This document shows positions 45,810 through 62,340 of a stretch of DNA of 64,000 nucleotides, in pieces. A program made the position numbers and the translations under genes. Under the pieces are notes generated by a model that was given only the letters and a program-made list of their open reading frames with translations, made no database searches and was not told the origin of the DNA. The DNA comes from Rubrivivax sp. (lineage in GTDB: Bacteria > Pseudomonadota > Gammaproteobacteria > Burkholderiales > Burkholderiaceae_C): contig JAIXYO010000007.1 in NCBI GenBank assembly GCA_027490215.1, positions 62,001-126,000 of the forward strand. Reading direction: 5' to 3'. The first letter of the stretch is position 1. Each line of letters starts with the position of its first letter.

Positions 45810-46688
45810 TCAGGCCGGGGCAATGCCCACATTCGGCGGTGCCGCCGCTGCGAGCCGGGTGGTGACTTCCTTACGGAAGCGATTCAGCTCCTGCACCGTC
45901 GCAAAACTGCGCTCCATCAGCAGGCTCATGTTGTGCAGGATGCGATCGACGACCTTGCCTTCCCATTCGGCATCGAACTGGATCTGTCGGTCCAGCCAGG
46001 CTTCGAGCCACACCGGGTCGGGCAGCCGGCTTTGAACCGTGTCGCGCGGAAACAGGCTTTCGTTCACATGCAGGTTGGTAGGGTGCAAGGCCTGCGCGGT
46101 GCGGCGGGCACTCGCCATCAGCACACCCACCTTGGAGAAGGCTGCACGGGCCTCGTCGCCCACCTTGTTCAGCGCACGCTTCATGTAGCGCAGGTACGCG
46201 CCGCCGTGGCGCGCTTCGTCACGTGCCAGGGTTTCGTAGATGGCCTTGATCACCGGCTCGTCATGCCATTCGGCCGCTCGGCGATACCAGTGATTCAGGC
46301 GGATCTCGCCGCAGAAATGCATCATCAGTGTCTCCAGCGCAGGCGCCGGATCGAACTCGAAACGCACTTCATGCAACTCGGCTTCCGTAGGCACCAGATC
46401 GGGCCGGAAGCGGCGCAGGTACTCCATCAACACCAGCGAATGCTTCTGTTCCTCGAAGAACCAGACGCTCATGAAGGCCGAGAAGTCGCTGTCGTCGCGG
46501 TTGTCGCGAAGGAACATCTCGGTAGCCGGCAGCGCAGCCCACTCGGTGATCGCGTTCATCTTGATCGTCTGCGCCTGCTCGTCGCTGAGCAGACTGGCGT
46601 CAAAGCGATCCCAGGGAATGTCGGTGTCCATGCTCCAGCGCACGGCTTCGAGCTGCTTGAAAAGTTCAGGGTAAAGCATGCTGGACAT
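45810..46688 (-). CDS. Ferritin-like diiron protein (acyl-ACP desaturase/ferritin superfamily)
   Basis: 292 residues, all-helical by composition. Two putative diiron motifs are visible: FFEEQKHSLVLMEYLRR (E-E-x-x-H) and ARDEARHGGAYLRYM (D-E-x-R-H), spaced as in acyl-ACP desaturase-like four-helix proteins. Function is not established for this group; oxidation of a fatty acyl or other substrate is possible. ATG at 46688 chosen, with another at 46679. It lies 85 bases after the photolyase gene on the same strand and may belong to the light-response group. Confidence 0.75.
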   Translation of the reverse strand: MSSMLYPELFKQLEAVRWSMDTDIPWDRFDASLLSDEQAQTIKMNAITEWAALPATEMFLRDNRDDSDFSAFMSVWFFEEQKHSLVLMEYLRRFRPDLVPTEAELHEVRFEFDPAPALETLMMHFCGEIRLNHWYRRAAEWHDEPVIKAIYETLARDEARHGGAYLRYMKRALNKVGDEARAAFSKVGVLMASARRTAQALHPTNLHVNESLFPRDTVQSRLPDPVWLEAWLDRQIQFDAEWEGKVVDRILHNMSLLMERSFATVQELNRFRKEVTTRLAAAAPPNVGIAPA

Positions 46689-46773: not shown

Positions 46774-48348
46774 TCAAAGGTCATCGAGATGATCGAGTAC
46801 GCGCTGCGCATCGGCACCGATGCGCTCGCGCTCCGCCGGCGACAGCCGGGCTACGTGGCGGGCCATCAGGGCGGTGCGCGGGTTGGCGCTCAGCTTGGCT
46901 TCGTGGCGATCCAGAAAGTACCAGTACAAAGCGGTGTAGGGGCACAGCTGCTTGCCTGTCGCCTGGCTCGCCTTGGCGTCCGGTGCGTAAGCGCAATGGC
47001 CGCAGTGGTTGCTCATCCGCTGGATGTACGCACCCGAGGCGACATAAGGCTTGCTGGTGAACCGGCCGCCGTCGGCATACAGGGCCATGCCGGCAACGTT
47101 CGGCAGTTCAACCCATTCGACCGCGTCGACATACACCGCGAGATACCAGGCGGCTACCTGCTTCGGATCGATCTCGGCCAGCAGGCCGAACAGCCCGGTC
47201 ACCATCAGCCGCTGGATGTGGTGCGCATAGCCGTATTGCAAAGTCTGCTCAATCGCGTCGCGAGCACAGGCCATCCGTGTGTCGCCAGTCCAGAACCAGC
47301 GCGGCAGCGGACGGCGGTGGTTGTAGTGATTCGCCTCGGCCATCTGCGGCATATCGCGCCAGTAGACGCCGCGGATGAACTCTCGCCAGCCGAGGATCTG
47401 CCGGATGAAGCCCTCGACGCTGGCCAGCGGCGCGCGTCGGTCGCGGTAAGCCTGCTCAGCCGCGGCAATGACCTCGCGAGGATCGAGCAGGTGCAGGTTC
47501 AGGCTGCTGGCCAGCAGCGAATGCCAGCCGAACGGCGTGCCCGTCCACATCGCGTCCTGGTAGTCACCGAAGGTGACAAGGCGATGCCCGATGAACGCCT
47601 GCAATGCCATGCGCGCCTGCGCTCGCGTGACTGGCCAGGCGAAGTGCGCGAGCGATCCGGGGTGATCGGGAAACAGCCGCTCGACGTCGGCCAACACCTC
47701 GCGCGTCAGGGCATTCGGCTCAAACGCTTCCGGCGGCGGGATCAGGCCTGGCCCGCGCTTCGGATAGCCCTTGCGATTCTCGGCGTCATGGTTCCACTGA
47801 CCCCCCTCGGGTTGATCGGGCGCGGCCGCTTCGCGGTCGATCAGGACGCGGTACCGACGACGCATTTCGCGATAGAAATACTCCATCCGTAAACTGCCCT
47901 TGTACTTGTCCGCCCAGCGCGCAAAGTCGGCGCGCGAGCAGAGGAAGTGCGGGTCGTCGAGCCATTGCAGCGTCACACCCGCGTGTTGAGCCGTCGTGGC
48001 GATGTCTTGTTGCAAGCGCCATGCGCCAGGTTCCAGCAGGCGCAAAACTTCGGGCCGCACGCGCTGCAACTGCCGGGCCAATCGGCCCACCAGCGTGGGC
48101 TCGAGGCAGTCGTCCAACGCGATGTAGTCGACCGTGAAACCGGCTTCCCGCAAGGCATCGCGAAAGTGCCGCATGCCCGAGAGGAACAGCGCAATGCGCG
48201 CCTTGTGGCTCCAGACCCCCGTCGCTTCGCCGGGTGCTTCGATCATCAGCACGCGGTCCCGCTGCGCCTCCAGACCCACCAGCGCCGGGCTGTCCAGCGT
48301 GAGTTGGTCACCGAGCACCAGCACCAGGCGGCGAACCGCGTCGGTCAT
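46774..48348 (-). CDS. phrB: Photolyase of the iron-sulfur bacterial (PhrB/FeS-BCP) type
   Basis: 524 residues from the ATG at 48348. LVLVLGDQLTL is the typical start of the group. Four cysteines fit the [4Fe-4S] ligands of PhrB: one in RMACARD, two in NHCGHC and one in KQLCPYT. PhrB-type enzymes repair (6-4) photoproducts using FAD and a lumazine antenna. The start overlaps the DUF2256 stop by four bases (ATGA). The 76 extra upstream codons in frame overlap that gene and are rejected. It is part of the CarH-like regulator operon. Confidence 0.92.
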   Translation of the reverse strand: MTDAVRRLVLVLGDQLTLDSPALVGLEAQRDRVLMIEAPGEATGVWSHKARIALFLSGMRHFRDALREAGFTVDYIALDDCLEPTLVGRLARQLQRVRPEVLRLLEPGAWRLQQDIATTAQHAGVTLQWLDDPHFLCSRADFARWADKYKGSLRMEYFYREMRRRYRVLIDREAAAPDQPEGGQWNHDAENRKGYPKRGPGLIPPPEAFEPNALTREVLADVERLFPDHPGSLAHFAWPVTRAQARMALQAFIGHRLVTFGDYQDAMWTGTPFGWHSLLASSLNLHLLDPREVIAAAEQAYRDRRAPLASVEGFIRQILGWREFIRGVYWRDMPQMAEANHYNHRRPLPRWFWTGDTRMACARDAIEQTLQYGYAHHIQRLMVTGLFGLLAEIDPKQVAAWYLAVYVDAVEWVELPNVAGMALYADGGRFTSKPYVASGAYIQRMSNHCGHCAYAPDAKASQATGKQLCPYTALYWYFLDRHEAKLSANPRTALMARHVARLSPAERERIGADAQRVLDHLDDL

Positions 48349-48518
48349 CGCGAAGGCACGGGATGACGCGCGGTTGCACGACAGCGATCGGAGCAGTACT
48401 TCACCTCGTTCCAATTCTTGGCCCAGGCGCGACGCCAGGTCATCGGACGCAGGCAGCCGAGACAGGTTTTCTCCGGCAAGGCCGACTTGTTGCCGCGGAA
48501 TGCGAGCGCCGAACCCAT
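48345..48518 (-). CDS. DUF2256 small zinc-ribbon-like protein
   Basis: 57 residues: KTCLGCLRPMTWRRAWAKNW followed by NEVKYCSDRCR, the four-cysteine DUF2256 pattern (CxxC...CxxxC). DUF2256 proteins often sit beside photolyase/cryptochrome genes; their role is unknown. The ATG overlaps the regulator stop (TGATG) and the stop overlaps the photolyase start (ATGA), so all three genes are coupled. The frame is open further upstream, but that part lies inside the regulator gene. Confidence 0.87.
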   Translation of the reverse strand: MGSALAFRGNKSALPEKTCLGCLRPMTWRRAWAKNWNEVKYCSDRCRATARHPVPSR

Positions 48519-49456
48519 CAGGCGCCGCCGTGCCGCCAGCGCTCGATCTGCGGGTGGATGTCCTGCAGCGATGCAAATGCCATCACGCCCTCGACCGGAC
48601 GGCGGTGCAGCACCGGCGCCGATCCGCCGACCCATAACTCGACGGCCGGCGGCAGCTTGCTGCGCAATTCGGTCAGACCATCAACCACCTGATTCGGGTT
48701 CATGCAGCCGGTGAAGCCAAGCGCCACGATGTCACAGCGATATGCTGAGGCGGCCAGCGTGATGTCCCACACGGGCGTCTGAACGCCCAGAGACAGCACG
48801 CGCGCGCCATCGAGCGAAAACAAGGTTTCGGCGAGCAGAAGGCCCAGGCCATGTGGCTCGCCAGGCAAGGTCGTCAGCAGCACCCGCGGCCGATCGAGTG
48901 GTGCGGCTTCGGGAATGCCGGCCAGCGCCTGCCGCAGCACGCCTTGCAAACATTCGATGTAGGCGTGCTCTTCGAAGATCTCTAGCTGACCGCGCATCCA
49001 CGTATCGCCCACCAGCATGTTCAGCGGCAGGACGACATCGAGGACGAAGCGTGACAAACCAAGACGCATCTGCGTTTGCAGCAACAAGCGACGCAGCGCA
49101 TCCACATCGTGCGAACGCATCAGTGCCAGGTAAGACTTCAGGTCAGGCGCCGTCAGATCGCTCCCGGGGCGCCGAGGGGCGTCAACTGTGTTCTCGCTGA
49201 GTTCGACCAAGGCCTCAATGGGCATTGGCACCAAGCGCCCAGGTCGATGTCCGCCGTCGATCAGGCGCTTGACAATGCGCAGTTTCTCAACCTGTTCCAG
49301 CGGATAGGCGCGCTCGCCATTCACGTCGCGCTCAGGCTGCGGAAAACCGTAGCGGCGCTCCCAGACCCGCAGCGTGTCTTTGGTCAGGCCGGTGTCGCGC
49401 TCAACGGCTGCGATGGCCAGCGTCAAAGACTTCAGACCTCGTGTGGAATCACTCAT
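48518..49456 (-). CDS. MerR-family regulator with B12-binding domain, CarH/LitR-like photoreceptor
   Basis: 312 residues. The N-terminal MerR helix-turn-helix (about 12-75) has VERDTGLTKDTLRVWERRYG. The light-sensing half has the four-helix-bundle motif Wx9EH (Trp153, Glu163-His164) and the cobalamin motif ExHxxG (E200-x-H202-x-x-G205), both characteristic of CarH. In CarH/LitR, adenosylcobalamin holds a DNA-bound tetramer in the dark; light breaks the Co-C bond and releases repression. It starts the operon with DUF2256 and photolyase and is divergent from a glutathione peroxidase gene 63 bases away. AdoCbl use is inferred from motifs. Confidence 0.9.
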   Translation of the reverse strand: MSDSTRGLKSLTLAIAAVERDTGLTKDTLRVWERRYGFPQPERDVNGERAYPLEQVEKLRIVKRLIDGGHRPGRLVPMPIEALVELSENTVDAPRRPGSDLTAPDLKSYLALMRSHDVDALRRLLLQTQMRLGLSRFVLDVVLPLNMLVGDTWMRGQLEIFEEHAYIECLQGVLRQALAGIPEAAPLDRPRVLLTTLPGEPHGLGLLLAETLFSLDGARVLSLGVQTPVWDITLAASAYRCDIVALGFTGCMNPNQVVDGLTELRSKLPPAVELWVGGSAPVLHRRPVEGVMAFASLQDIHPQIERWRHGGA

Positions 49457-49481
49457 GGCACATCGGAATACTGGACCCCAC

Positions 49482-49510
49482 AATATACTTTGATGACAAG
49501 AATTTGACTA
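49482..49510 (-). promoter_or_regulatory. Probable promoter of the CarH-like operon in the divergent 63-base gap
   Basis: On the minus strand TAGTCA (49510-49505) and TATATT (49487-49482) are 17 bases apart, a sigma-70-type arrangement. On the plus strand TATACT at 49484-49489 could serve the peroxidase gene, so both promoters would overlap and one bound regulator could control both. Confidence 0.45.
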
Positions 49511-49519
49511 GGACAGGAT

Positions 49520-50110
49520 ATGGACGAATCAATCTTCCGCGCGCTGATGACCCGACTGAAATCGATGGTTACGGCAGCGATGCTGCTGGTCTGCGCGACG
49601 GCTGCGCAGGCTACGAGTTGCCCTGCCTTGCTGGACCGAAGCATGCCGAGGCTGCAGGATGAAAAACCGCAGAACCTGTGTCAGTACAGCGGTAAGGTCG
49701 TCGTTGTCGTGAACACCGCCAGCTACTGTGGATTCACATCGCAGTACAAGGGACTGGAGGCACTGTACGCCCGGTACCAAGATCGCGGTCTGGTGGTCCT
49801 GGGCTTTCCTTCCAATGATTTCGGCAGTCAGGAGCCTGGCAGCAACCAGGAAATCGCTTCGTTCTGCTCGAGCACCTTCGGCGTCAAGTTTCCGATGTTC
49901 ACAAAGACTCGCGTCTCCAAGAGCGCAGGATCCGATGTCAACCCGCTCTATGCGGATCTGCGCAAGGTGACTGGATCGGCGCCGCGATGGAATTTCCACA
50001 AATACGTGATTGCCAGAGACGGCACGACGGTGGAAAGCTACAGCGCGCTGACCGCGCCGGACGACAAGTCATTCATCCGGAGCCTGGAGAAACTGCTGGC
50101 CGCGCCCTGA
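49520..50110 (+). CDS. Glutathione peroxidase family protein, exported
   Basis: 196 residues. An N-terminal signal peptide (MVTAAMLLVCATAAQA|TS) is followed by the peroxidase core: NTASYCGFTSQY with a catalytic Cys in place of selenocysteine, FPSNDFGSQEPG with the active-site Gln, and RWNFHKY with the Trp. It reduces peroxides, probably lipid hydroperoxides, in the periplasm, using thioredoxin-like donors. AGGACAGG precedes the ATG. It is divergent from the CarH-like operon and sits next to lipid-modifying genes, consistent with a photo-oxidative stress role. Confidence 0.9.
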   Translation: MDESIFRALMTRLKSMVTAAMLLVCATAAQATSCPALLDRSMPRLQDEKPQNLCQYSGKVVVVVNTASYCGFTSQYKGLEALYARYQDRGLVVLGFPSNDFGSQEPGSNQEIASFCSSTFGVKFPMFTKTRVSKSAGSDVNPLYADLRKVTGSAPRWNFHKYVIARDGTTVESYSALTAPDDKSFIRSLEKLLAAP

Positions 50111-50483
50111 GACACCCCGCAAAATCAAGGGAATACCGCTCAGTTATATTTTGAACAGTATGGTTCATCATGTCGAAATGCCCCTGACGGCGCGCGAACA
50201 AGATCGCCTCGCGCCGCAAAGCCGGAAGACTTTCAAGGCGCCGCCAAAATCAGGGGAACTCCCTTGTCGTTTTATTGACTACACTTGGGCTTGTTGCTTG
50301 ACAACTTCGACGTTCATCAGCTCTTGTTCTGGAACGAGGCCTGAGAAACCCAAGCTGGCAAGTGCATTTGCAAACTGTTTCGCGTTGCACAGCCAGTCGG
50401 CACAACCGATCGAAATCCGGCGGCGGTTTTCATTCCTCCTCCCTCCGTTATTCGCCCCCGGGCGCTGTGCAGCTTCTTTATTC
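50111..50483. other. Gene-poor leader between peroxidase and FAD oxidase genes
   Basis: No recognised gene. Base composition is less GC-rich than elsewhere. A TGAAC-N6-GTTCA inverted repeat lies at 50152-50167. On the minus strand an unstarted frame near 50280-50450 reads plausibly as protein (ISIGCADWLCNAKQFANAL) and may be a gene remnant. I did not find tRNA or riboswitch signatures I could name. Confidence 0.5.
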
Positions 50484-50529
50484 AAGGCGGTGGTGATGTC
50501 TCTTCGGGGCGTCACCGCCGCCTTTGATT
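50484..50529 (+). terminator. Strong hairpin with T-run, 25 bases before the FAD oxidase gene
   Basis: Arms 50484-50496 and 50512-50524 pair over 13 bases with one G-U wobble, around a 15-base loop, followed by TGATTTTG. It lies 370 bases after the peroxidase stop but only ~30 bases before the next gene, so it could be a distant terminator or an attenuator in the leader of the lipid operon. Confidence 0.72.
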
Positions 50530-50553
50530 TTGTGCGCGTTGCGGAGCCTTCGG

Positions 50554-51867
50554 GTGTCTGACGACGTGCGGCGCGTGGCGGTCATCGGCTCTGGCATCTC
50601 GGGCCTGTCGGTGGCGCACGCATTGGCCAGCGATGCGCAGGTCACGCTGTTCGAGGCGGGCGCCTATTTCGGTGGGCACACCCACACCGTCGATGTCACG
50701 CTGGAAGGTCAGATCCATGGCGTCGACACTGGCTTTCTGGTCTTCAACGAACGCACTTATCCGAAGCTGATCGCACTGTTCGGCGAGTTGCAAGTGCCCA
50801 CGGCGCTGTCGGACATGTCGTTTTCGGTGCAGGTGCCTGACATCGGCCTGGAATGGAGTGGCAGCGACCTGAACAGCGTGTTCGCGCAGCGCCGAAATCT
50901 GGCTCGGCCAGCGTTCTGGCGGATGTTGCGCGACCTGACGCGCTTCAATCGCCTGGCCACAACGCTGGCCGAGCGCGGCAGGGCCACCGAACAGCAACAG
51001 GCGATTGGGGACTTCCTGGCCGAACACCGCTTCAGCGCTGAATTCCGCGACTGGTATTTCCTGCCGATGATCGGCTGCATCTGGTCCTGTCCGACCGACC
51101 AGATGCTGCGCTTCCCGATCGCCACGATGATCCGCTTTTGCCATAACCACGGTCTCATCCAGGTGACGAATCGGCCTCGCTGGTACACGGTGAGGGGCGG
51201 CGCACGCCAGTACGTAGAGAAGCTGTTGCGCCGAGTTCCCGACGCGCGGCTGAACACACCGGTGCGCAGCGTGCGGCGCTCGCAGACTGGCGGCCCCGTC
51301 AGCGTATCCACCGATCACGGCACCGAGCTGTTCGACGAAGTCGTGCTCGCGTGCCACAGCGACCAGTCGCTGGCGCTGCTCGCCGATGCCACGCCGGCCG
51401 AACGCGCGGTGCTGGGTGCGATCCGCTACCACCGCAACCGTGCGGTGCTGCACACCGACACTGCCGTGCTGCCACGACGCAAGGTCGCCTGGGCCGCCTG
51501 GAACTACGAGCGCGCGCGCGCCGGCTCGCGCGAGTCAGCCGCGGTCTGCCTGCACTACCTGATCAACCGGCTGCAACCGCTGCCTTTCAGGGCGCCTGTC
51601 GTGGTGTCGCTCAATCCCATCACCGAACCGCGCGCCGACACTGTCCACGGCGAGTACGACTACGCCCACCCGGTGTTCGACGCGGCAGCGATCGCCGCGC
51701 AGCAGCGGGTGCCATCGCTGCAGGGCGAAGCGCACACCTGGTTCTGCGGCGCCTGGACGCGCTACGGTTTTCATGAAGATGGCCTGATGTCCGGCCTCGC
51801 CGTGGTCGATGGATTGCGCCGGCGCTGGGCTCAAACCGAACCGCGCCCCATGCCGGTGGCCGCATGA
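50554..51867 (+). CDS. FAD-dependent amine-oxidase-like oxidoreductase (COG2907 type)
   Basis: 437 residues. The FAD-binding motif VAVIGSGISGLSVAHALA is at the N-terminus; the body matches the amine oxidase/desaturase-like flavoproteins that co-occur with DUF1365 and CFA-synthase genes. The GTG at 50554 is chosen because CGGAG lies about eight bases upstream; a TTG at 50524 is within the terminator stem. Relatives in singlet-oxygen regulons act on fatty acids (proposed desaturation in furan-fatty-acid synthesis in Rhodobacter); that role here is inference. Overlaps the DUF1365 gene by four bases. Confidence 0.87.
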   Translation: MSDDVRRVAVIGSGISGLSVAHALASDAQVTLFEAGAYFGGHTHTVDVTLEGQIHGVDTGFLVFNERTYPKLIALFGELQVPTALSDMSFSVQVPDIGLEWSGSDLNSVFAQRRNLARPAFWRMLRDLTRFNRLATTLAERGRATEQQQAIGDFLAEHRFSAEFRDWYFLPMIGCIWSCPTDQMLRFPIATMIRFCHNHGLIQVTNRPRWYTVRGGARQYVEKLLRRVPDARLNTPVRSVRRSQTGGPVSVSTDHGTELFDEVVLACHSDQSLALLADATPAERAVLGAIRYHRNRAVLHTDTAVLPRRKVAWAAWNYERARAGSRESAAVCLHYLINRLQPLPFRAPVVVSLNPITEPRADTVHGEYDYAHPVFDAAAIAAQQRVPSLQGEAHTWFCGAWTRYGFHEDGLMSGLAVVDGLRRRWAQTEPRPMPVAA

Positions 51868-52676
51868 CAGCGTGTCTTGCGAACGTGGAGCAGGCCGAAC
51901 CCTTGATCGGCTTCGGGCAGGTGCGCCACACTCGATTGCGGCCGGCGCTAAACCGCTTCGCCTACCCGACCTACTTTCTGATGTTGCCGATGCGCCGTCT
52001 GCGGGCGGCGCCACATGCCGCGCTGGCGCGGAACCGCTTCGGGCTGATCAGCTTTCACGACCGCGACCACGGCGACGGACGCGCCGACAGCCTGGCCTGG
52101 CTGGATGAACTGCTGGAGCACGACGGCATCGCCGATGCCAATGGCGAGGTCTGGCTGCACTGCTACCCGCGGGTGCTGGGCCACACTTTCAAGCCGGTGA
52201 GCTTCTGGTACTGCCACCGCGCAGACGATTCGCTGGCCGCAGTGGTCGTCGAGGTCAACAACACCTTCGGCGAGCGGCACTGCTACCTGCTGCACGGTCC
52301 GCAGCTAGGCTACGGCAAAGAGCAGGTGGCGACCAAGGTATTTCATGTGTCGCCGTTCTGCGCGGTGAACGGGCACTATCGATTCCGCTTCATGCACGGC
52401 ACGGCGCATCCGACGGGCGACGCCGGGCGTGTGGTGATGAGCAGAACGGTGGCCCGCATCGACCACGACGACGAGCTTGGTGCGTTGATCCAGACCAGTG
52501 TGTCAGGCGCACTCGAAGTCCTGTCGGACCGCAGCTTGCGTCGGGCTTTTTTCGGCATGCCGCTGATGACGCTGGGCGTGATCGGCCGGATCCACTGGCA
52601 GGCACTGCGCTTGTGGATCAAACGCGTACCGTTCTGGCGCAAGCCCACGCCGCCCGCTGTTTTCGTGACGCGCTAA
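51864..52676 (+). CDS. DUF1365 protein
   Basis: 270 residues. The family landmarks are RHTRLRPALNRFAYPTYFL near the N-terminus, the LHCYPRVLGHTFKPVSFWYC segment, and KVFHVSPF in the middle. Function is unknown; the gene nearly always lies between the COG2907 flavoprotein and a CFA-synthase paralogue. The ATG overlaps the preceding stop (ATGA). The C-terminal part has a hydrophobic stretch (PLMTLGVIGRIHWQALRLWI) suggesting membrane association. Confidence 0.9.
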   Translation: MTACLANVEQAEPLIGFGQVRHTRLRPALNRFAYPTYFLMLPMRRLRAAPHAALARNRFGLISFHDRDHGDGRADSLAWLDELLEHDGIADANGEVWLHCYPRVLGHTFKPVSFWYCHRADDSLAAVVVEVNNTFGERHCYLLHGPQLGYGKEQVATKVFHVSPFCAVNGHYRFRFMHGTAHPTGDAGRVVMSRTVARIDHDDELGALIQTSVSGALEVLSDRSLRRAFFGMPLMTLGVIGRIHWQALRLWIKRVPFWRKPTPPAVFVTR

Positions 52677-52712
52677 AAGCGCGCTCTGCTTTTATCCTGT
52701 CAGCCCCGCTGC

Positions 52713-53957
52713 ATGCCCCGATTCGACGTGATGAGCACCACCTCTCTTTCCCCTGCAACCCTCCCCGACACTGCACCCGCCGCCGCCCGCGCGGTGTTCC
52801 GGCTGCTGAAGAACCTGAAGCACGGCACGCTGGACATCCAGCTGCCTGACGGCACCGGCCTGCATTTCGGCCGAGCCGTCGATGGCGGGCTGCGCGCGAG
52901 CATGCGCCTGGTCAACTGGAACGTCTGCGGGGCCGCGATGCGCTCGGGTGACATCGGCTTCGCCGAAAGCTTCATCGCGGGCGATTGGACTTCACCCGAC
53001 CCGGCCGCGCTGCTCAAGCTGCTGATCGCGAACCGCAGCGAGGTGGAATCTCTCGTCTACGGCACCTGGTGGGGCGCACTGTTGTACCGAGCGAAACACT
53101 GGCTGAATCGCAACTCGCGGTCGGGCAGCAAGAAAAACATCCACGCGCACTACGACCTCGGCAACGAGTTCTACCGTCTGTGGCTTGACCCGACGATGAA
53201 CTATTCCAGTGCCTGGTTCGAGGGCGACCGAACGCGGCCGATGGAAGACGCGCAGTGGGCCAAGGTGCGGCGCGCGCTCACCGAATGCGGTGTCAAGCCG
53301 GGCGACCGCGTGCTGGAGATCGGCTGCGGGTGGGGCGCGCTGGCCGAATGCGCCGCGCGCGAGTTTGGCGCCACCGTCACCGGCGTCACCTTGTCGAGCG
53401 AGCAACTCGAGTGGGCGCAAAAGCGACTCGCCGATGCAAGCCTGCCCGGCGACTTGCGCTTCCAGGATTACCGCGACCTGAAGGCGGGAAGCGAAGGGCC
53501 GTTCGACGCCATCGCCTCGATCGAGATGTTCGAGGCGGTGGGCCGAGAGTACTGGCCCAGCTTCTTCGAGACGCTGAGTTCGCAATTGAAGCCGGGCGGC
53601 AAGGCCTGCGTGCAGAGCATCGTGATCCGGGACGACCTGTTCGAGCGCTACGTCCACTCCACCGACTTCATCCAGCAGTACATCTTCCCCGGTGGCCTGC
53701 TGCCCAGCCCGACCGAGTTCCGCGAGGCCGCCACCCGCGCAGGCCTGCGCGTGGTCGGGGAACTGGAATTCGGCCTCGACTACGCGGAGACGTTACTGCG
53801 CTGGCGGCAGCGCTTCCTGAGCCACGAAGGGCCGGTGCGGCAGTTGGGCTTCGACACCCGGTTCATGCGCATCTGGGAGTTTTACCTCGCTTACTGCGAG
53901 GCCGCGTTCACGATGGGCAACACCAACGTCATGCAGTTCACGCTGCAGCGAGACTGA
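52713..53957 (+). CDS. Cyclopropane-fatty-acyl-phospholipid synthase family methyltransferase
   Basis: 414 residues; an ATG at 52731 is an alternative start. The AdoMet-binding motif is VLEIGCGWGALAE, with HYDLGNEFYRLWLD and MNYSSAWF upstream and IEMFEAVG, YIFPGG downstream, all typical of CfaA-type enzymes. It methylates unsaturated phospholipid acyl chains; paralogues in photo-oxidative regulons may instead make methylated or furan precursors. Without a reference alignment I cannot say which. It is 36 bases after DUF1365 and one base before the next gene. Confidence 0.92.
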   Translation: MPRFDVMSTTSLSPATLPDTAPAAARAVFRLLKNLKHGTLDIQLPDGTGLHFGRAVDGGLRASMRLVNWNVCGAAMRSGDIGFAESFIAGDWTSPDPAALLKLLIANRSEVESLVYGTWWGALLYRAKHWLNRNSRSGSKKNIHAHYDLGNEFYRLWLDPTMNYSSAWFEGDRTRPMEDAQWAKVRRALTECGVKPGDRVLEIGCGWGALAECAAREFGATVTGVTLSSEQLEWAQKRLADASLPGDLRFQDYRDLKAGSEGPFDAIASIEMFEAVGREYWPSFFETLSSQLKPGGKACVQSIVIRDDLFERYVHSTDFIQQYIFPGGLLPSPTEFREAATRAGLRVVGELEFGLDYAETLLRWRQRFLSHEGPVRQLGFDTRFMRIWEFYLAYCEAAFTMGNTNVMQFTLQRD

Positions 53958-53958
53958 G

Positions 53959-54549
53959 ATGTACGAGCATCAACCCATCGATCGCCAACGCCGATCGCTG
54001 CTGGCGCTGCCGCTGACCTGCGGCGCGCTGACGATCAGCGCTGTGGCGCTGGCGCGCTCTGCACCGCCGACGCCGCCCGAGGTGAGCAGCGAGTTGCCAG
54101 GCGCGCGGCTGCTTGGCAGTGGCCGTTTGACCTATTTCCTGTTCCACGTCTACGACGCAAGGCTGTGGGCCGGGTCCGAGTTCGGGGTGACGCGCTTTGA
54201 TCAGGTGCCACTGGCACTCGAACTTGAATACGCACGCAGCTTCGACAACGCCGACATCGCTGAGCGCTCGATCGAGGAAATGCGGCGCAGCGGACCGATC
54301 GCACCCGAGAAGGTGACGCGCTGGATGGCGGCGATGAAGCAGGCCTTCCCGGACGTCGCTTCAGGTGACCGCGTGACCGGCGTGCAAGTGCCCGGCGTGG
54401 CAGCACGCTTCTTCGTCAATGGCAGGCTCACCGGCGAAATCCGGGATGGCGAGTTCACCCGGCTGTTCTTCGGCATCTGGCTGTCGCCGCGGACCTCCGA
54501 GCCCGAGCTGCGCCAGGCGCTGCTGGCAGGCGCGCCGAGCGGCTCCTGA
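53959..54549 (+). CDS. Chalcone isomerase-like exported protein
   Basis: 196 residues. A signal-like N-terminus (RRSLLALPLTCGALTISAVALA) is followed by a chalcone_isomerase-like fold with GARLLGSGRLTYFLFHVYDARLW and a C-terminal FFGIWL..RTSEPELRQALL. Plant enzymes with this fold bind fatty acids or isomerise chalcones; bacterial members are of unknown function and may bind lipids in the periplasm. Starts one base after the CFA-synthase stop, so it is surely in the same operon. Confidence 0.85.
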   Translation: MYEHQPIDRQRRSLLALPLTCGALTISAVALARSAPPTPPEVSSELPGARLLGSGRLTYFLFHVYDARLWAGSEFGVTRFDQVPLALELEYARSFDNADIAERSIEEMRRSGPIAPEKVTRWMAAMKQAFPDVASGDRVTGVQVPGVAARFFVNGRLTGEIRDGEFTRLFFGIWLSPRTSEPELRQALLAGAPSGS

Positions 54550-54563
54550 TCGAGACGGGCACC

Positions 54564-55895
54564 GTGGCCACGAATGCCGTCGTCCGACCCCATGAGGCGG
54601 CCCCGATCGACCCCGATGCGTTCCCCGCCCGCGCGGGTCCTGTCGAGATGGTGCGCTGGCGGCAGGGCGTTCGCTACGGTGCGCTCGGCCTGCCGCTGGC
54701 CTTCGTGGCACTGCCGCTCTACGTGGTGCTGCCCAACCATTACGCCACTGAGTTCGGCATTCCGCTGGCCACGCTCGGCGCGGTGCTGCTGGGGGCACGC
54801 GCGCTCGATGCCGTTGCCGACCCGCTGATCGGCAGGGCTGCCGACGGATGGCTTGCCCGCGGAGGTCGCCGCGCCTGGTGGATGATCCTGATGGCCGCGG
54901 TGGTGTTGGCAGCCGGGTTCGCCGCACTGTTCTTTCCGCAAGTCCAAGGCGATTCGGCCTTGCTGGTGTGGTGTGCTCTCACGCTGGTAGTGACCTACCT
55001 CGCTTACAGCGTGGTCACGGTGGTGCATCAATCATGGGGCGCGCGGCTCGGCGGCGATGCGCCTCAGCGAGCGCGCATCGTCGCCTGGCGTGAAGGTCTC
55101 GCGCTGGTCGGCGTGCTGGTGGCCAGCGTGCTGCCCTCACTGGCCGGGCTGGCGGTGACCACGGCGGTCTTCGCGGTGGCGCTGGCGATTGGCGTGCTGT
55201 TCCTGCGTGCAGCGCCAGCACCGGCGCCGTCCGATCCGTCGGTACGGCCCGCGTCGATGCGCTTGCCGTTTGCGACACCGGCTTTCCGCCGGCTGTTGGC
55301 GGTGTACCTGGTCAACGGCATCGCCAGTGCGGTGCCGGCGACGCTGGTGCTGTTCTTCATCCGCGACCGACTGCAGGCATCGTCGTTCGAGCCGCTGTTC
55401 CTGGCCAGCTATTTCGCGGCCGGCGCGTTGTCGATCCCGCTGTGGGTGCGCGCCGTACGCTGGTGGGGACTGGAGCGCGCCTGGCTGATCAGCATGGCGC
55501 TGGCCATCGTCGTGTTCAGCGGTGCGACGACGCTGGGCGCGGGCGACGTGGTCGCCTTCACCATCGTTTGCACTCTCAGTGGCATCGCACTGGGTGCCGA
55601 CCTGACATTGCCGAGCGCGATCCTCGCGGGCGTGATTCAGCGCGCCGGGCATGGCGAACAGTCCGAGGGCGCCTACTTCGGCTGGTGGAACTTTGCGACC
55701 AAGCTGAACCTGGCACTGGCTGCTGGTGTCGCTTTGCCGGCCCTGTCGTGGTTCGGCTACGCACCGGGCAGCACCAGCCCTCAGGCGCTGTCCGCGCTCA
55801 CCACCGCTTATTGCCTGCTGCCCTGCCTGCTGAAAGCCGGCGCGGCCGGGCTGCTCTATACCCTTCTGATACGCAACGCCAGGACATCACCATGA
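54564..55895 (+). CDS. MFS transporter, sugar/cation (GPH/MFS_2)-like
   Basis: 443 residues with about 12 helices, starting at a GTG. The loop LDAVADPLIGRAADGW after helix 2 is the GPH-family signature (DPxxGxxxD). The GPH family includes melibiose carriers and lysophospholipid transporters (MFSD2A/LplT relatives). Among lipid-modifying genes, a role in moving a lipid-related substrate is plausible but unproven. Its stop overlaps the DUF3833 start by four bases. Confidence 0.85.
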   Translation: MATNAVVRPHEAAPIDPDAFPARAGPVEMVRWRQGVRYGALGLPLAFVALPLYVVLPNHYATEFGIPLATLGAVLLGARALDAVADPLIGRAADGWLARGGRRAWWMILMAAVVLAAGFAALFFPQVQGDSALLVWCALTLVVTYLAYSVVTVVHQSWGARLGGDAPQRARIVAWREGLALVGVLVASVLPSLAGLAVTTAVFAVALAIGVLFLRAAPAPAPSDPSVRPASMRLPFATPAFRRLLAVYLVNGIASAVPATLVLFFIRDRLQASSFEPLFLASYFAAGALSIPLWVRAVRWWGLERAWLISMALAIVVFSGATTLGAGDVVAFTIVCTLSGIALGADLTLPSAILAGVIQRAGHGEQSEGAYFGWWNFATKLNLALAAGVALPALSWFGYAPGSTSPQALSALTTAYCLLPCLLKAGAAGLLYTLLIRNARTSP

Positions 55896-56425
55896 ATAGA
55901 CGTTTGTTGTGCGCGGCGGCCGTGGCCGCCGCCACCTTGCTGACTTCCTGCGCCGGTCCGACGCCCGCCGATTACGCGGCCGAGAAGCCCGTGCTCGACC
56001 TGAAAACCTATTTCGACGGCGACATCACCGCACACGGGCTGTTCACCGATCGATCCGGCAAGGTGGTGCGCCGCTTCACCGTGCTGATGAAGTGCAGCTG
56101 GCAGGGCGACGACGGCGTGCTCGACGAACGATTCACCTACAACGATGGCGAGAAGCAGCAACGCATCTGGTATCTGAAGAAGCTGCCGAACGGCAGGTAT
56201 ACCGGCACCGCCGCCGATGTGGTCGGAACGGCGCAGGGCCAAAGCGCCGGCAATGCGTTCCAGTGGAGCTACACGCTGAACCTGCCGGTCGATGGCAAGA
56301 CCTATGAAGTGCAGTTCGATGACTGGATGTATCTGATGGACGAGCACGTGATGCTGAACAAGGCTGTGATGAGCAAGTTCGGCGTGCGGCTGGGCGATGT
56401 GACGCTGTCGTTCTACAAGCCGTGA
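55892..56425 (+). CDS. DUF3833 lipoprotein
   Basis: 177 residues. A lipoprotein signal ends at LLTSC|AGP (lipobox with Cys20). The rest matches DUF3833: LDLKTYFDGDITAHGLFTDR, RFTVLMKCSW and DDWMYLMDEHVMLNKAVMSK. The function is unknown; it is a standard member of the light/singlet-oxygen gene set in gammaproteobacteria and Rhodobacter relatives. Start at 55892 overlaps the MFS stop (ATGA). Confidence 0.9.
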   Translation: MNRRLLCAAAVAAATLLTSCAGPTPADYAAEKPVLDLKTYFDGDITAHGLFTDRSGKVVRRFTVLMKCSWQGDDGVLDERFTYNDGEKQQRIWYLKKLPNGRYTGTAADVVGTAQGQSAGNAFQWSYTLNLPVDGKTYEVQFDDWMYLMDEHVMLNKAVMSKFGVRLGDVTLSFYKP

Positions 56426-56438
56426 CGGAAGCCGTCGC

Positions 56439-57212
56439 ATGTCCTTGAACCCACGCATCACCGACTGGTCTGGCCAGGTCGTCTGGCTCGTTGGCGCGTC
56501 CAGCGGCATTGGCCTCGCCACGGCCAAGCTTCTGCATGCGCGCGGGGCGAAGGTGATCGTGTCAGCGCGCAACGCGGCAGCCATCGCAGCATTTGAAGCC
56601 GCTCACGCGGACAGCCTCGGCATCGCTCTCGATGCCACTGACCGCGGTGCCATGGCAAGCGCGGTGGAACGCATCGTCACGCGCTTTGGCCGGCTGGACA
56701 TGGCGCTGTACTGCGCCGGCCATTACGCAGCCTTGCGCGCGACGGCCTTCGACCTCGATCAGATGCTGCAGCACGACAAGGTCAACTACGTCGGCGCGCT
56801 TTACATGCTGGACGCCGTGCTGCCGGTGCTGCTGCGGCAGAAGTCCGGGCACGTCAGCCTGGTGGCGAGCGTCGCCGGCTACCGCGGCTTGCCGAACGCG
56901 TTGGCCTATGGGCCGACCAAGGCAGCACTGATCAATCTCGCTCAGACGCTGTATCTCGATTTGCAGCCGCAGGGCATCGGCGTGTCGGTGATCTGCCCCG
57001 GCTTCGTCGAGACACCGTTGACGGCCCAGAACGAATTCAAGATGCCGGCGTTGATCCAGCCCGAAGAGGCAGCGCGTGAGATGCTGGCCGGCTGGGCGGA
57101 TGGAGAGTTCGAAATCCATTTCCCGAAGCGGTTCACGCGCTTCCTGAAGGCATTGAGTCACCTCGGAGACGGCCTTTACTTCAAGGCCATTCGGCGCGTC
57201 ACGGGTTTGTAG
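56439..57212 (+). CDS. Short-chain dehydrogenase/reductase
   Basis: 257 residues. NAD(P)-binding motif VWLVGASSGIGLATAKLL, CAGH in place of the usual NAG, Ser in VSLVASVAGY, and the catalytic Tyr-Lys pair in YGPTKAALI are intact. It reduces or oxidises an unknown alcohol or ketone, possibly a modified lipid. It begins 13 bases after the DUF3833 stop and ends 10 bases before the SnoaL-like gene. Confidence 0.92.
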   Translation: MSLNPRITDWSGQVVWLVGASSGIGLATAKLLHARGAKVIVSARNAAAIAAFEAAHADSLGIALDATDRGAMASAVERIVTRFGRLDMALYCAGHYAALRATAFDLDQMLQHDKVNYVGALYMLDAVLPVLLRQKSGHVSLVASVAGYRGLPNALAYGPTKAALINLAQTLYLDLQPQGIGVSVICPGFVETPLTAQNEFKMPALIQPEEAAREMLAGWADGEFEIHFPKRFTRFLKALSHLGDGLYFKAIRRVTGL

Positions 57213-57222
57213 GGCGCAGCCA

Positions 57223-57675
57223 ATGACAAGCACTTCTGCCGCACGCAGCAACGATCCACGCGTGGTCCGCATCATCGAGGCCTTCGAAGGCTTGACGCCT
57301 GCCGACCTGGCCCGATTCGGCGACTTCTATGCGCCCGACGCCGCCTTCAAGGACCCGTTCAACGAGGTGCGAGGCGTGCCTGCCATCCGGCAGGTTTTCG
57401 AGCACATGTACGTGGTGCTCGAAGCGCCGCGCTTCGTCATCCATGACGTGGTGGCTCAAGGCGACCAGTGCGTGCTGACCTGGGATTTCATCTTCCGTTT
57501 CCGGCGCTTCAGCCGTGAGTGGCAGACGGTTCGTGGCGCCTCCCACCTGAAGCTCGACGCCAACGGACTGATCACACTGCACCGCGACTACTGGGACGTG
57601 GCCGAAGAGCTGTACGAGAAGCTGCCGGGCGTCGGCTCGCTGATGCGCTGGCTGAAGCGGCGGGCCAATTCATGA
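57223..57675 (+). CDS. SnoaL-like/NTF2-like small protein
   Basis: 150 residues of the NTF2-like cone fold. DLARFGDFYAPDAAFKDPFNEVRG is characteristic, and WDFIFRFRRFSREW and LHRDYWDVAEELYEKLPGVG end the domain. These proteins bind small hydrophobic molecules or act as isomerases; function here is unknown. It is found with the SDR, DUF3833, and CFA genes in related light-response clusters. Ends 25 bases before the FAD oxidoreductase start. Confidence 0.87.
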   Translation: MTSTSAARSNDPRVVRIIEAFEGLTPADLARFGDFYAPDAAFKDPFNEVRGVPAIRQVFEHMYVVLEAPRFVIHDVVAQGDQCVLTWDFIFRFRRFSREWQTVRGASHLKLDANGLITLHRDYWDVAEELYEKLPGVGSLMRWLKRRANS

Positions 57676-57700
57676 GGCGCTGCGCCCGCCGGGGCGCCTG

Positions 57701-58750
57701 ATGGTCGCCGTCGCAGTGATCGGCGCGGGCATCGCCGGTCTGACCGTCACTGCCGAGCTGGCAGCGCTCGGCCACGACATCTTCCTGTTCGACAAGAGCC
57801 GCAGCGCTGGCGGTCGCTGTGCGACGCGGCGCAGCGCGGTCGGGGCGTTCGACCATGGCGCGCCTGGCTTCAGCCCAACCACAGCCGCTTTCCGCGCACA
57901 GGTTGCGGCATGGCAGCACGCGGGCTGGGTCTGCGCCGGCAGCGAAGGCGATGCCGTGGCGACAGACGAGGCGCCGCAACACTCGACACCCTCGTCAATC
58001 TACGGTGTGCCGTCGATGAATGCGCTGGCCCGGCAGCTCGAAGCCCAGTTGCCTGCCCGAGTCACCCTGCACACCGGCAGTCCGGTGACTGCGATCGACC
58101 CCGTATCTGAAGGCGAGGGCTGGCAGCTCCGCTTGAGCGACGACGGCATCGCATGCGCCGCGCGATTCGACGCGGTGGTGGTCGCGGTTCCCGCCGAGCA
58201 GGCTGCGTTGCTGCTGGCGCCTGATGCCGCGCAGGCCGAAGCGATGCGTCATGCACGCAGTGACCCCTGCTGGACCGTGATGGCAGCGTGGGCCAGGCCG
58301 CTACCTGGGGTGCTGGAGACCAGCCTGCGCAGCGATGCACACCGCGTGCTGCTGATGGCACGGCGTGATGACGTACGCCAGGGTCGCACCCATGAAGCGG
58401 GTGTCGCCAATCGCTGGGTATTGCACGCCACGCCGCAGTGGACAGTCGAGCATCTGGACGCACCCGCAGAGACAGTGGCTGTTGAATTGCTGCGCGCCTT
58501 TGCGCGTCAGCTCGGCACCGAACTTGAAGCCCCCCTGCATGCGATCGCGCACCGCTGGCGTTATGCGCAGGTTCGCGCGCCGCGCAGCGAGCCTTTTGGC
58601 TGGAATCCGGCGCTGCGACTGGGGAGCTGCGGCGATGCCTGGCACGCCCATGGTGACTCCGGATCAACTTCGCCCGATGGCATTGAGCGCGCCTGGCTCA
58701 GCGGCCGCGCACTCGCGCAGCAGATGCACCAAACCTTGTCGCCTCGCTGA
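57701..58750 (+). CDS. FAD/NAD(P)-dependent oxidoreductase, renalase-like
   Basis: 349 residues. VAVIGAGIAGLTVTAELA binds FAD; RSAGGRCATRR and FDHGAPGF are typical of renalase-like bacterial flavoproteins. Renalase oxidises misreduced alpha-NAD(P)H or related compounds; the substrate here is not known. GTG start at 57701. The start lies 25 bases after the SnoaL-like gene, so it may be the last member of the plus-strand lipid/light operon. It is convergent with the MFS gene. Confidence 0.86.
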   Translation: MVAVAVIGAGIAGLTVTAELAALGHDIFLFDKSRSAGGRCATRRSAVGAFDHGAPGFSPTTAAFRAQVAAWQHAGWVCAGSEGDAVATDEAPQHSTPSSIYGVPSMNALARQLEAQLPARVTLHTGSPVTAIDPVSEGEGWQLRLSDDGIACAARFDAVVVAVPAEQAALLLAPDAAQAEAMRHARSDPCWTVMAAWARPLPGVLETSLRSDAHRVLLMARRDDVRQGRTHEAGVANRWVLHATPQWTVEHLDAPAETVAVELLRAFARQLGTELEAPLHAIAHRWRYAQVRAPRSEPFGWNPALRLGSCGDAWHAHGDSGSTSPDGIERAWLSGRALAQQMHQTLSPR

Positions 58751-61869: not shown

Positions 61870-62340
61870 ATGAACCGTCTCGCTGCCATCTTGCCCGCCA
61901 GCAATGTGCTGGTCGATGTAGACGCCACCAGCAAGAAGCGCGTGTTCGAACACGTCGGCTTGCTGTTCGAAAATCAGCACGCCGTGGCGCGTGCGACCGT
62001 CACAGACAACCTGTTCGCCAGGGAACGCCTCGGTTCGACCGGCTTGGGTCACGGTGTCGCCATCCCGCACGGACGCATCAAGGGGTTGAAAAATCCGCTG
62101 GCGGCTGTGATCCGGGTGCAGCAAGCCATTCCGTTCGATGCCCCGGACGACGAGCCGGTCACGCTGATGATTTTCCTGCTGGTGCCTGAAGCTGCGACCC
62201 AACGTCATCTGGAAATCCTGTCGGAGATCGCCGAGATGCTGAGCGACCGCGAATTGCGCGAGCGCCTGAAGAGCGAAAGCCAGGCGGCCAAAGTGCATGA
62301 ACTGATCGCGAATTGGGAACCGCTGAAATCCGTGGCCTGA
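61870..62340 (+). CDS. ptsN: PTS IIA-Ntr-type regulatory protein
   Basis: 156 residues. The active-site loop GHGVAIPHGRIKGL contains the phosphorylated His, and TLMIFLLVPEAATQRHL follows. PtsN is the output of the nitrogen PTS and regulates potassium transport and metabolism. Start at 61870 (MNRLAAILP); the longer frame upstream crosses the terminator region and is rejected. It is 74 bases before hprK. Confidence 0.95.
   Translation: MNRLAAILPASNVLVDVDATSKKRVFEHVGLLFENQHAVARATVTDNLFARERLGSTGLGHGVAIPHGRIKGLKNPLAAVIRVQQAIPFDAPDDEPVTLMIFLLVPEAATQRHLEILSEIAEMLSDRELRERLKSESQAAKVHELIANWEPLKSVA

Follow-up and report, generated by a model that had tools for sequence, protein, structure and literature searches.

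Positions 62,001 to 126,000 of contig JAIXYO010000007.1 of Rubrivivax sp. (C2:62001-126000; hereafter the window, 64,000 nucleotides of a host genome of 3.51 Mb that is 99.6% complete) carry a divergent gene cluster that we consider, with a probability of about 0.75, to be a light-inducible furan fatty acid (Ufa) operon under a class-I CarH regulator. This reading draws on the gene families and their order, the conserved divergence of the two arms, the B12-binding residues of the regulator and a conserved candidate operator; the light response, the product and the enzyme activities are deduced from these. The locus would thus join a known lipid pathway to a B12-type light regulator, with the addition of an RNA gene (R1) that is not in Rfam.

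In the dark, CarH bound to adenosylcobalamin (AdoCbl) would occupy the motif TTTGTCYAnGACAAA between the divergent promoters and block both arms; light would break the Co-C bond, release CarH from the DNA and allow both arms to be expressed. The carH arm would then supply a photolyase-related protein for DNA repair together with a diiron oxidase of desaturase-like type, and the opposite arm an exported peroxidase with UfaD, UfaO and UfaM. UfaM would methylate a phospholipid-bound monounsaturated acyl chain that UfaD would then desaturate, and UfaO would insert O2-derived oxygen, closing a furan ring predicted to scavenge oxidants.

Probable furan fatty acid genes and the adjacent CarH regulator

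The features on which this reading depends are as follows (positions in the window).

45810-46688 (longest open reading frame, ORF, to 46817), minus strand: DIO, last gene of the carH arm, encoding a diiron protein similar to acyl-ACP desaturases (FA_desaturase_2, 5.9e-8)
46774-48576, start uncertain with the Pfam match from about 48324, minus strand: PHR, deoxyribodipyrimidine photolyase-related protein (PF04244, 5.7e-70)
48518-49456, minus strand: CarH, MerR regulator of the class-I LitR/CarH type, B12-binding signature residues present (Pfam, structure alignment, signature check)
49503-49517, no strand: candidate CarH operator TTTGACTAGGACAGG (motif shared by CarH upstream regions)
49520-50110, likely start 49547, plus strand: GPX, glutathione peroxidase with a signal-peptide-like N-terminus (PF00255, 2.9e-33; sequence)
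50554-51867, plus strand: ufaD-like FAD oxidoreductase, COG2907 type (PF01593, 8.8e-16; Amino_oxidase/NAD_binding_8)
51864-52676, plus strand: ufaO-like DUF1365 protein (PF07103, 2.3e-77)
52713-53957, plus strand: ufaM-like S-adenosylmethionine-dependent fatty-acyl methyltransferase of the cyclopropane fatty acid (CFA) family, CMAS (PF02353, 7.7e-80)

The core of the operon appears to correspond, in both family and order, to the known furan fatty acid pathway UfaD-UfaO-UfaM, as the three families are consecutive at 50554-53957 and match at Pfam family level (PF01593, PF07103, PF02353). In Rhodobacter sphaeroides the methyl group on phospholipid-bound cis-vaccenate comes from UfaM; UfaD converts the product into a methylated diene, and the furan forms when UfaO, which belongs to DUF1365, introduces oxygen derived from O2 (PMC7380195). 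The corresponding genes of Rhodopseudomonas palustris, ufaD, ufaO and ufaM, carry the consecutive numbers RPA2571, 2570 and 2569 (PMC7380195), and the same order in both organisms supports the furan reading; furan formation here is otherwise inferred from the family-level match. The link to furan fatty acids made in a preliminary description of this DNA was right. Its proposal of an undescribed lipid pathway was overstated, since the roles of UfaM, UfaD and UfaO are already defined by genetics and biochemistry (PMC7380195) and an overlapping light-induced cluster has been reported from Pseudomonas (PMC9758184).

CarH, whose start we correct to the ATG at 49456, exceeds the Pfam cut-offs for MerR (42.3 versus 21.6 bits) and B12-binding_2 (24 versus 23) and aligns to the Thermus (TtCarH) structures. 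The four AdoCbl light signatures GxxW, EH, GxxH and GxxxP, known as the CarH AdoCbl signature (PMC11796333), are all present, as GDTW, EEH, GEPH and GVQTP, and the host genome encodes a cobalamin adenosyltransferase (PF01923). This agrees with the cobalamin-type regulator placed earlier at the head of the gene run, and the protein looks like a B12-dependent class I regulator and not like the class II regulators of Pseudomonas. Control of the class II LitR kind was rejected, as the operator TGTACA-N12-TGTACA occurs 0 times in the window and the B12 residues of CarH are kept. The closest named relatives of this CarH come from Burkholderiales metagenome-assembled genomes and from records labelled Rhizobacter or Rubrivivax.

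The association of carH with the ufa genes is conserved. The 60 relatives searched include 31 with a CarH match and 42 with DUF1365, and by a count of table rows a CarH-family gene lies at most 7 kb from DUF1365 in 29 of the 31, including three (G040, G051 and G057) in which it is just 29-31% identical. As for the remaining two, G004 carries CarH and DUF1365 on different contigs and the match in G025 is weak. Of 80 named Burkholderiales loci, 73 have ufaD and carH in divergent orientation and six are too short; L094 is the one named locus without ufaD, within 3.6 kb. Both ufaD and ufaM were found in 51 of the 52 named loci that extend more than 6 kb on the ufa side. Other regulators occupy this place in some of the 42 relatives with DUF1365: two (L029 and L030) have a TetR gene divergent from ufaD, one (G017) has ChrR beside ufaD, and in ten no regulator could be named there, G001 being fragmented and G004 split. 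At the G017 locus (L032) the rpoE-chrR pair is directly divergent from ufaD, a natural regulator swap within the family. In L007, L009, L013 and L019, from other families, a FolE2 (GCHY-1) gene stands between carH and ufaD, as the first gene on the ufa side; folE belongs to the Pseudomonas light regulon (PMC9758184), so that this position fits a light programme.

CarH upstream regions have in common the consensus TTTGTCYAnGACAAA, which lies over the divergent promoters. The pattern TTTGTCCAGGACAAA was matched at 12 or more of 15 positions in 65 of 83 CarH upstream regions versus 0.4 in dinucleotide shuffles, the consensus having been picked from the same loci as were scored. Scoring was repeated with an operator variant taken from loci outside the named set, with which the named set shares some records, and the same threshold was reached in 54 of 68 named upstream regions versus 1 of 68 carH coding controls. 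Eleven ufa loci that lack carH reached 8-10 of 15, and the operator was not seen in them. On the gpx side of the window, a promoter read by eye (-35 ATGACA, 49493-49498; -10 GATATG, 49517-49522) has the candidate operator between its two elements, and the operator also covers the -35 that serves carH on the minus strand (-10 TATATT, by eye). As both promoters are touched, one repressor could shut both arms. The earlier placing of the gene set under a photoreceptor thus gains support, at the level of sequence, from the conserved divergence and the conserved candidate operator.

The second arm of the divergent unit, formed by the photolyase-related protein (DPRP) and the AurF/FA_desaturase_2-like diiron protein DIO, had been absent from the preliminary description. 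The ExxH motifs and start of DIO were taken from an alignment with 19 other copies, to which it is 69-93% identical. DIO is present in 36 of the 60 relatives, two of which (G034 and G042) are without DUF1365, and is missing from eight genomes with DUF1365, some of them incomplete. Its structure model (pLDDT 75.8, pTM 0.74) retrieved only acyl-ACP desaturases among the 12 top Foldseek matches (best E 6.8e-4), but a single match passes E 0.001 and the root-mean-square deviations are large; agreement from a profile search is weak (DesA2 at E 0.011, outranked by a designed helix bundle at 0.0007). That DIO acts in the furan pathway is a guess from linkage.

Several observations weigh against this interpretation of the locus. 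The second B12 domain of CarH, the B12-binding Rossmann domain, scores 19.8 bits where the Pfam cut-off is 32.1, even if it aligns to TtCarH, and the whole protein lies far under the NCBIfam CarH equivalog cut-off (110.9 versus 400). In one CarH homolog (L008:5257-6309, minus strand) the B12 residues W, EH and H are gone, although the gene retains its place beside the ufa operon, and at L020, the best CarH match of G051, 16 kb of sequence contain no ufa gene. The operator copy of the window is itself weak (11/15), and a search of the host genome for further CarH targets gave two matches to TTTGWCYANGACA versus two to reversed-pattern controls, without enrichment. On the enzymatic side, UfaM and Cfa are inseparable with the models used, so a cyclopropane or methylated product without furan is possible. 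In R. sphaeroides the other operon genes, RSP1087-1089, are dispensable for the furan acid (PMC7380195), from which it follows that the later genes of the present operon may do something else.

Those later genes, with a palindrome located 5' of ufaD, are listed below.

50135-50164, no strand: conserved palindrome ACCnnnCwGTT..AACwGnnnGGT, TetR-operator-like (conservation)
53959-54549, plus strand: chalcone-isomerase-like protein, Chalcone_3 (PF16036, 1.1e-10)
54564-55895, plus strand: MFS_2 (GPH-type) transporter (PF13347, 7.3e-53)
55892-56425, plus strand: DUF3833 protein, start corrected (PF12915, 1.8e-70)
56439-57212, plus strand: short-chain dehydrogenase (SDR), adh_short (PF00106, 3e-40)
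57223-57675, plus strand: SnoaL-like protein, SnoaL_2 (PF12680, 1.2e-18)
57701-58750, plus strand: renalase-like flavin amine oxidase, Amino_oxidase (PF01593, 2.4e-13)

A Pfam search of the window recovered, in their places, all the gene families that had been named in the preliminary description. The near-continuous run described there is real as a gene run, and chance as its source is excluded by a gene order kept across genera and families; its continuity did not hold, because 443 bp without a Pfam family, housing a conserved RNA, split gpx (start 49520, or 49547 if the signal-peptide-like start read from the sequence is used) from ufaD. The renalase-like gene is mostly a same-genus addition: among 12 loci of the genus that were mapped, 7 have it and three of the remaining five end too soon, and outside the genus it was seen at one locus, L054. 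On the carH arm, coaD and glnE (convergent) come after the diiron gene. TetR-operator-like palindromes are also seen 5' of ufaD in loci without carH (L025, L026), and L144 has, near 1513 on the minus strand, a long palindrome TTTGACATGTATTTGTCCATGACAAATACATGTCAAA with a CarH-operator-like core, upstream of an ORF that we take by eye to be IscR-like.

The embedded RNA R1 and its promoter

The interval between gpx and ufaD contains three features.

50253-50283, plus strand: sigmaE-type promoter of R1, GGAACT-N16-GAC in the window (GTC in several same-genus relatives)
50375-50487, plus strand: R1, conserved structured RNA with a CCUCCUCCCUCC loop (fold, covariation, model search)
50484-50531, plus strand: terminator-like hairpin with a T-rich tail, ending 22 bp 5' of ufaD (sequence and conservation)

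R1 represents a well-supported structured RNA family that Rfam does not contain and that is widespread in one large bacterial family. Stem patterns for the hairpin search were set by hand. The fold z-score of the region is -3.7, and 13 of 24 pairs are changed on both sides in 16 copies, rising to 21 of 24 in 61 copies. Covariation in the 61 copies is 0.525 versus 0.266 when shuffled and at most 0.124 when slid, in an alignment built against the model, which favours the model structure. The sequence CTCCTCCC was found in 62 of 63 copies. The R1 model matches 180 of 250 genomes of the host family, with one copy each among the matches listed; in an order-wide sample of 80 genomes, two of them from the host family, it matched those two and gave one marginal match (0.007). 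Rfam returned for the R1 region of the window, at E up to 1, just mir-2, below its gathering score and over the terminator hairpin, and gave 0 matches at the gathering cut-off for eight R1 loci.

R1 was found in 40 of the 80 named CarH loci, always on the ufaD strand, and not found in the other 40, some of which end early; no R1 lies between gpx and ufaD in L038-L041. The Rubrivivax gelatinosus locus (L075) has carH, ufaD, ufaM and R1. It is also present in six genomes without DUF1365 (G018, G027, G029, G030, G032 and G034), so that R1 as a leader of ufa alone was rejected and its promoter is best seen as serving R1 itself; in G017 it sits 266 kb from ufa. At L043-L051 several relatives have GPx, glutathione S-transferase-like and PurB-like neighbours of R1 in place of ufaD. 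By eye we take the flanking ORFs of about 204 aa to be glutathione S-transferase and those of 459 aa to be PurB; identification of the former as coq7 was dropped, the sequence reading by eye as glutathione S-transferase.

The element GGAACT was found upstream of R1 in 49 of 63 copies versus 3.2 in mononucleotide shuffles, with TC at a fixed offset of 23 after it in 36 of the 49. GGAAC within 60-190 nt 5' of R1 occurs in 42 of 63 versus 7.4 shuffled and 7 for the reversed-complement control. Not among these 63 upstream regions are L073, the near-duplicates L037 and L063-L066, and six matches at named loci that score under 50 bits (L100, L118, L125, L134, L138 and L142). The rpoH promoter of Shewanella, which depends on RpoE, has this form too (PMC4336711). 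The promoter type points to envelope stress and may give the locus a second, light-independent input; this touches the outcome that the preliminary description had set against its own proposal, expression driven by a remote sigma factor independently of the regulator. The anti-Shine-Dalgarno (anti-SD) loop of R1 gave no convincing cis target among 14 gene starts of the window (ufaD -12.5 and the PHR ORF start -12.9 kcal/mol).

As a tentative extension, which we hold to be possible but distinctly less probable than not, R1 could be a family-wide sigmaE-dependent anti-SD small RNA (sRNA) nested in a B12-light-switched furan operon. The ufaDOM genes would be reached only through R1, light (through CarH) and envelope stress (through sigmaE) would converge on a single antioxidant pathway of membrane lipids, the sRNA would lower other protein synthesis and the diiron protein would be an added enzyme of the pathway.

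Alternative readings of the locus

An unlikely alternative, to which we nevertheless give some weight, is that the operon is mainly driven by sigmaE in response to envelope stress, by read-through from the R1 promoter into ufaD, with CarH controlling just gpx and its own arm. The conserved GGAACT-N16-(G/T)TC promoter, a canonical RpoE above cut-off in the host genome, and the gap of 22 bp between terminator and ufaD, which seems from the sequence too small for a separate promoter, all speak for it. However, the window has GAC in place of GTC at the -10, and a scan with the strict pattern found nothing on its plus strand; R1 occurs in genomes without DUF1365; and the ufa genes stay with carH in L038-L041 and in the half of the named loci where R1 is missing or was not found. 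The locus might also be an ordinary cyclopropane or methyl fatty acid stress operon, making no furan and controlled by CarH as proposed above. Membership of the UfaM-like protein in the CFA family is consistent with this, but the protein falls under the NCBIfam Cfa cut-offs (237 versus 400 and 250 versus 600, with no UfaM model matched) and has UfaD- and UfaO-like genes immediately 5', as in R. palustris, and we regard such an operon as improbable.

The preliminary description had noted the overlap of this set with ChrR-sigmaE targets, correctly, as the singlet oxygen regulons of Shewanella and Stenotrophomonas share part of its gene content according to the papers cited below. A RpoE-ChrR regulon with its regulator elsewhere in the genome is nonetheless largely refuted and retains a very slight probability: ChrR, which the same description had not seen in the window, is absent from the nearly complete host genome (TIGR02451, 0/1), and the window has 0 promoters of the form TGATC-N14-19-CGTA. 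The one Cupin_7 match in the host genome, at C63, lies in a stand-alone ORF of 142 aa.

Relation to known systems

The open-access literature that we searched yielded no paper linking a class I CarH to ufa genes and none on R1. In Pseudomonas, light control through LitR-type regulators is already reported for an overlapping gene set (PMC9758184), so what is new is the B12-type switch and its candidate operator.

The R. sphaeroides and R. palustris pathway shares the UfaD, UfaO and UfaM families with the present locus, and R. palustris likewise has them in consecutive genes; in R. sphaeroides it is raised by loss of ChrR (PMC7380195), whereas here the three genes are linked to CarH and accompanied by gpx, a diiron gene, a photolyase-related gene and the RNA embedded in the operon. 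Burkholderiales anti-SD sRNAs (S17/CT_433, CT_521 and ncS27) share with R1 a C/U-rich unpaired stretch complementary to the ribosome-binding site, and such RNAs are known in other contexts from Bordetella and Burkholderia (PMC11722255, PMC12235514, PMC5688073). These accounts place S17/CT_433 next to coq7 and CT_521 next to rpoH, while R1 differs in context and has a sigmaE-type promoter. Identity of R1 with ncS27, a member of RF02278, or with the similar S17 was rejected, since neither the window region nor the eight loci match RF02278.

In Shewanella the RpoE2-ChrR regulon shares the periplasmic GPx, photolyase and Cfa, and in Stenotrophomonas rpoEc-chrR-chrA a CfaS and a FAD oxidoreductase occur in a divergent cluster; the regulator is in both an extracytoplasmic function (ECF) sigma/anti-sigma pair, unlike CarH (PMC4336711, PMC11832516). 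Closer in regulation is the Pseudomonas PplR/PmlR class II LitR regulon, in which light induces, under LitR/CarH-family repressors, a cluster of ufaM, FAD oxidoreductase, SDR and photolyase (phrB) genes (PMC9758184). Class II LitR does not bind B12, PmlR2 acts with a short LOV (light-oxygen-voltage) protein and the operator is TGTACA-N12-TGTACA (PMC9758184), whereas the present regulator keeps the B12 residues and has TTTGTCYAnGACAAA as its candidate operator. The class I CarH/LitR proteins of Thermus, Myxococcus and Bacillus have, as here, a MerR helix-turn-helix with B12 domains and the W, EH, H signature, but control carotenoids (PMC9758184) where the present targets are lipid and peroxidase genes. 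CarH, mostly known for carotenoids, thus gains a conserved place beside protective membrane-lipid genes in Burkholderiales. The same lipid genes are paired with differing regulators by lineage, CarH, ChrR or TetR among the loci compared here and class II LitR in Pseudomonas, and this variety may help to explain the role of these lipids.

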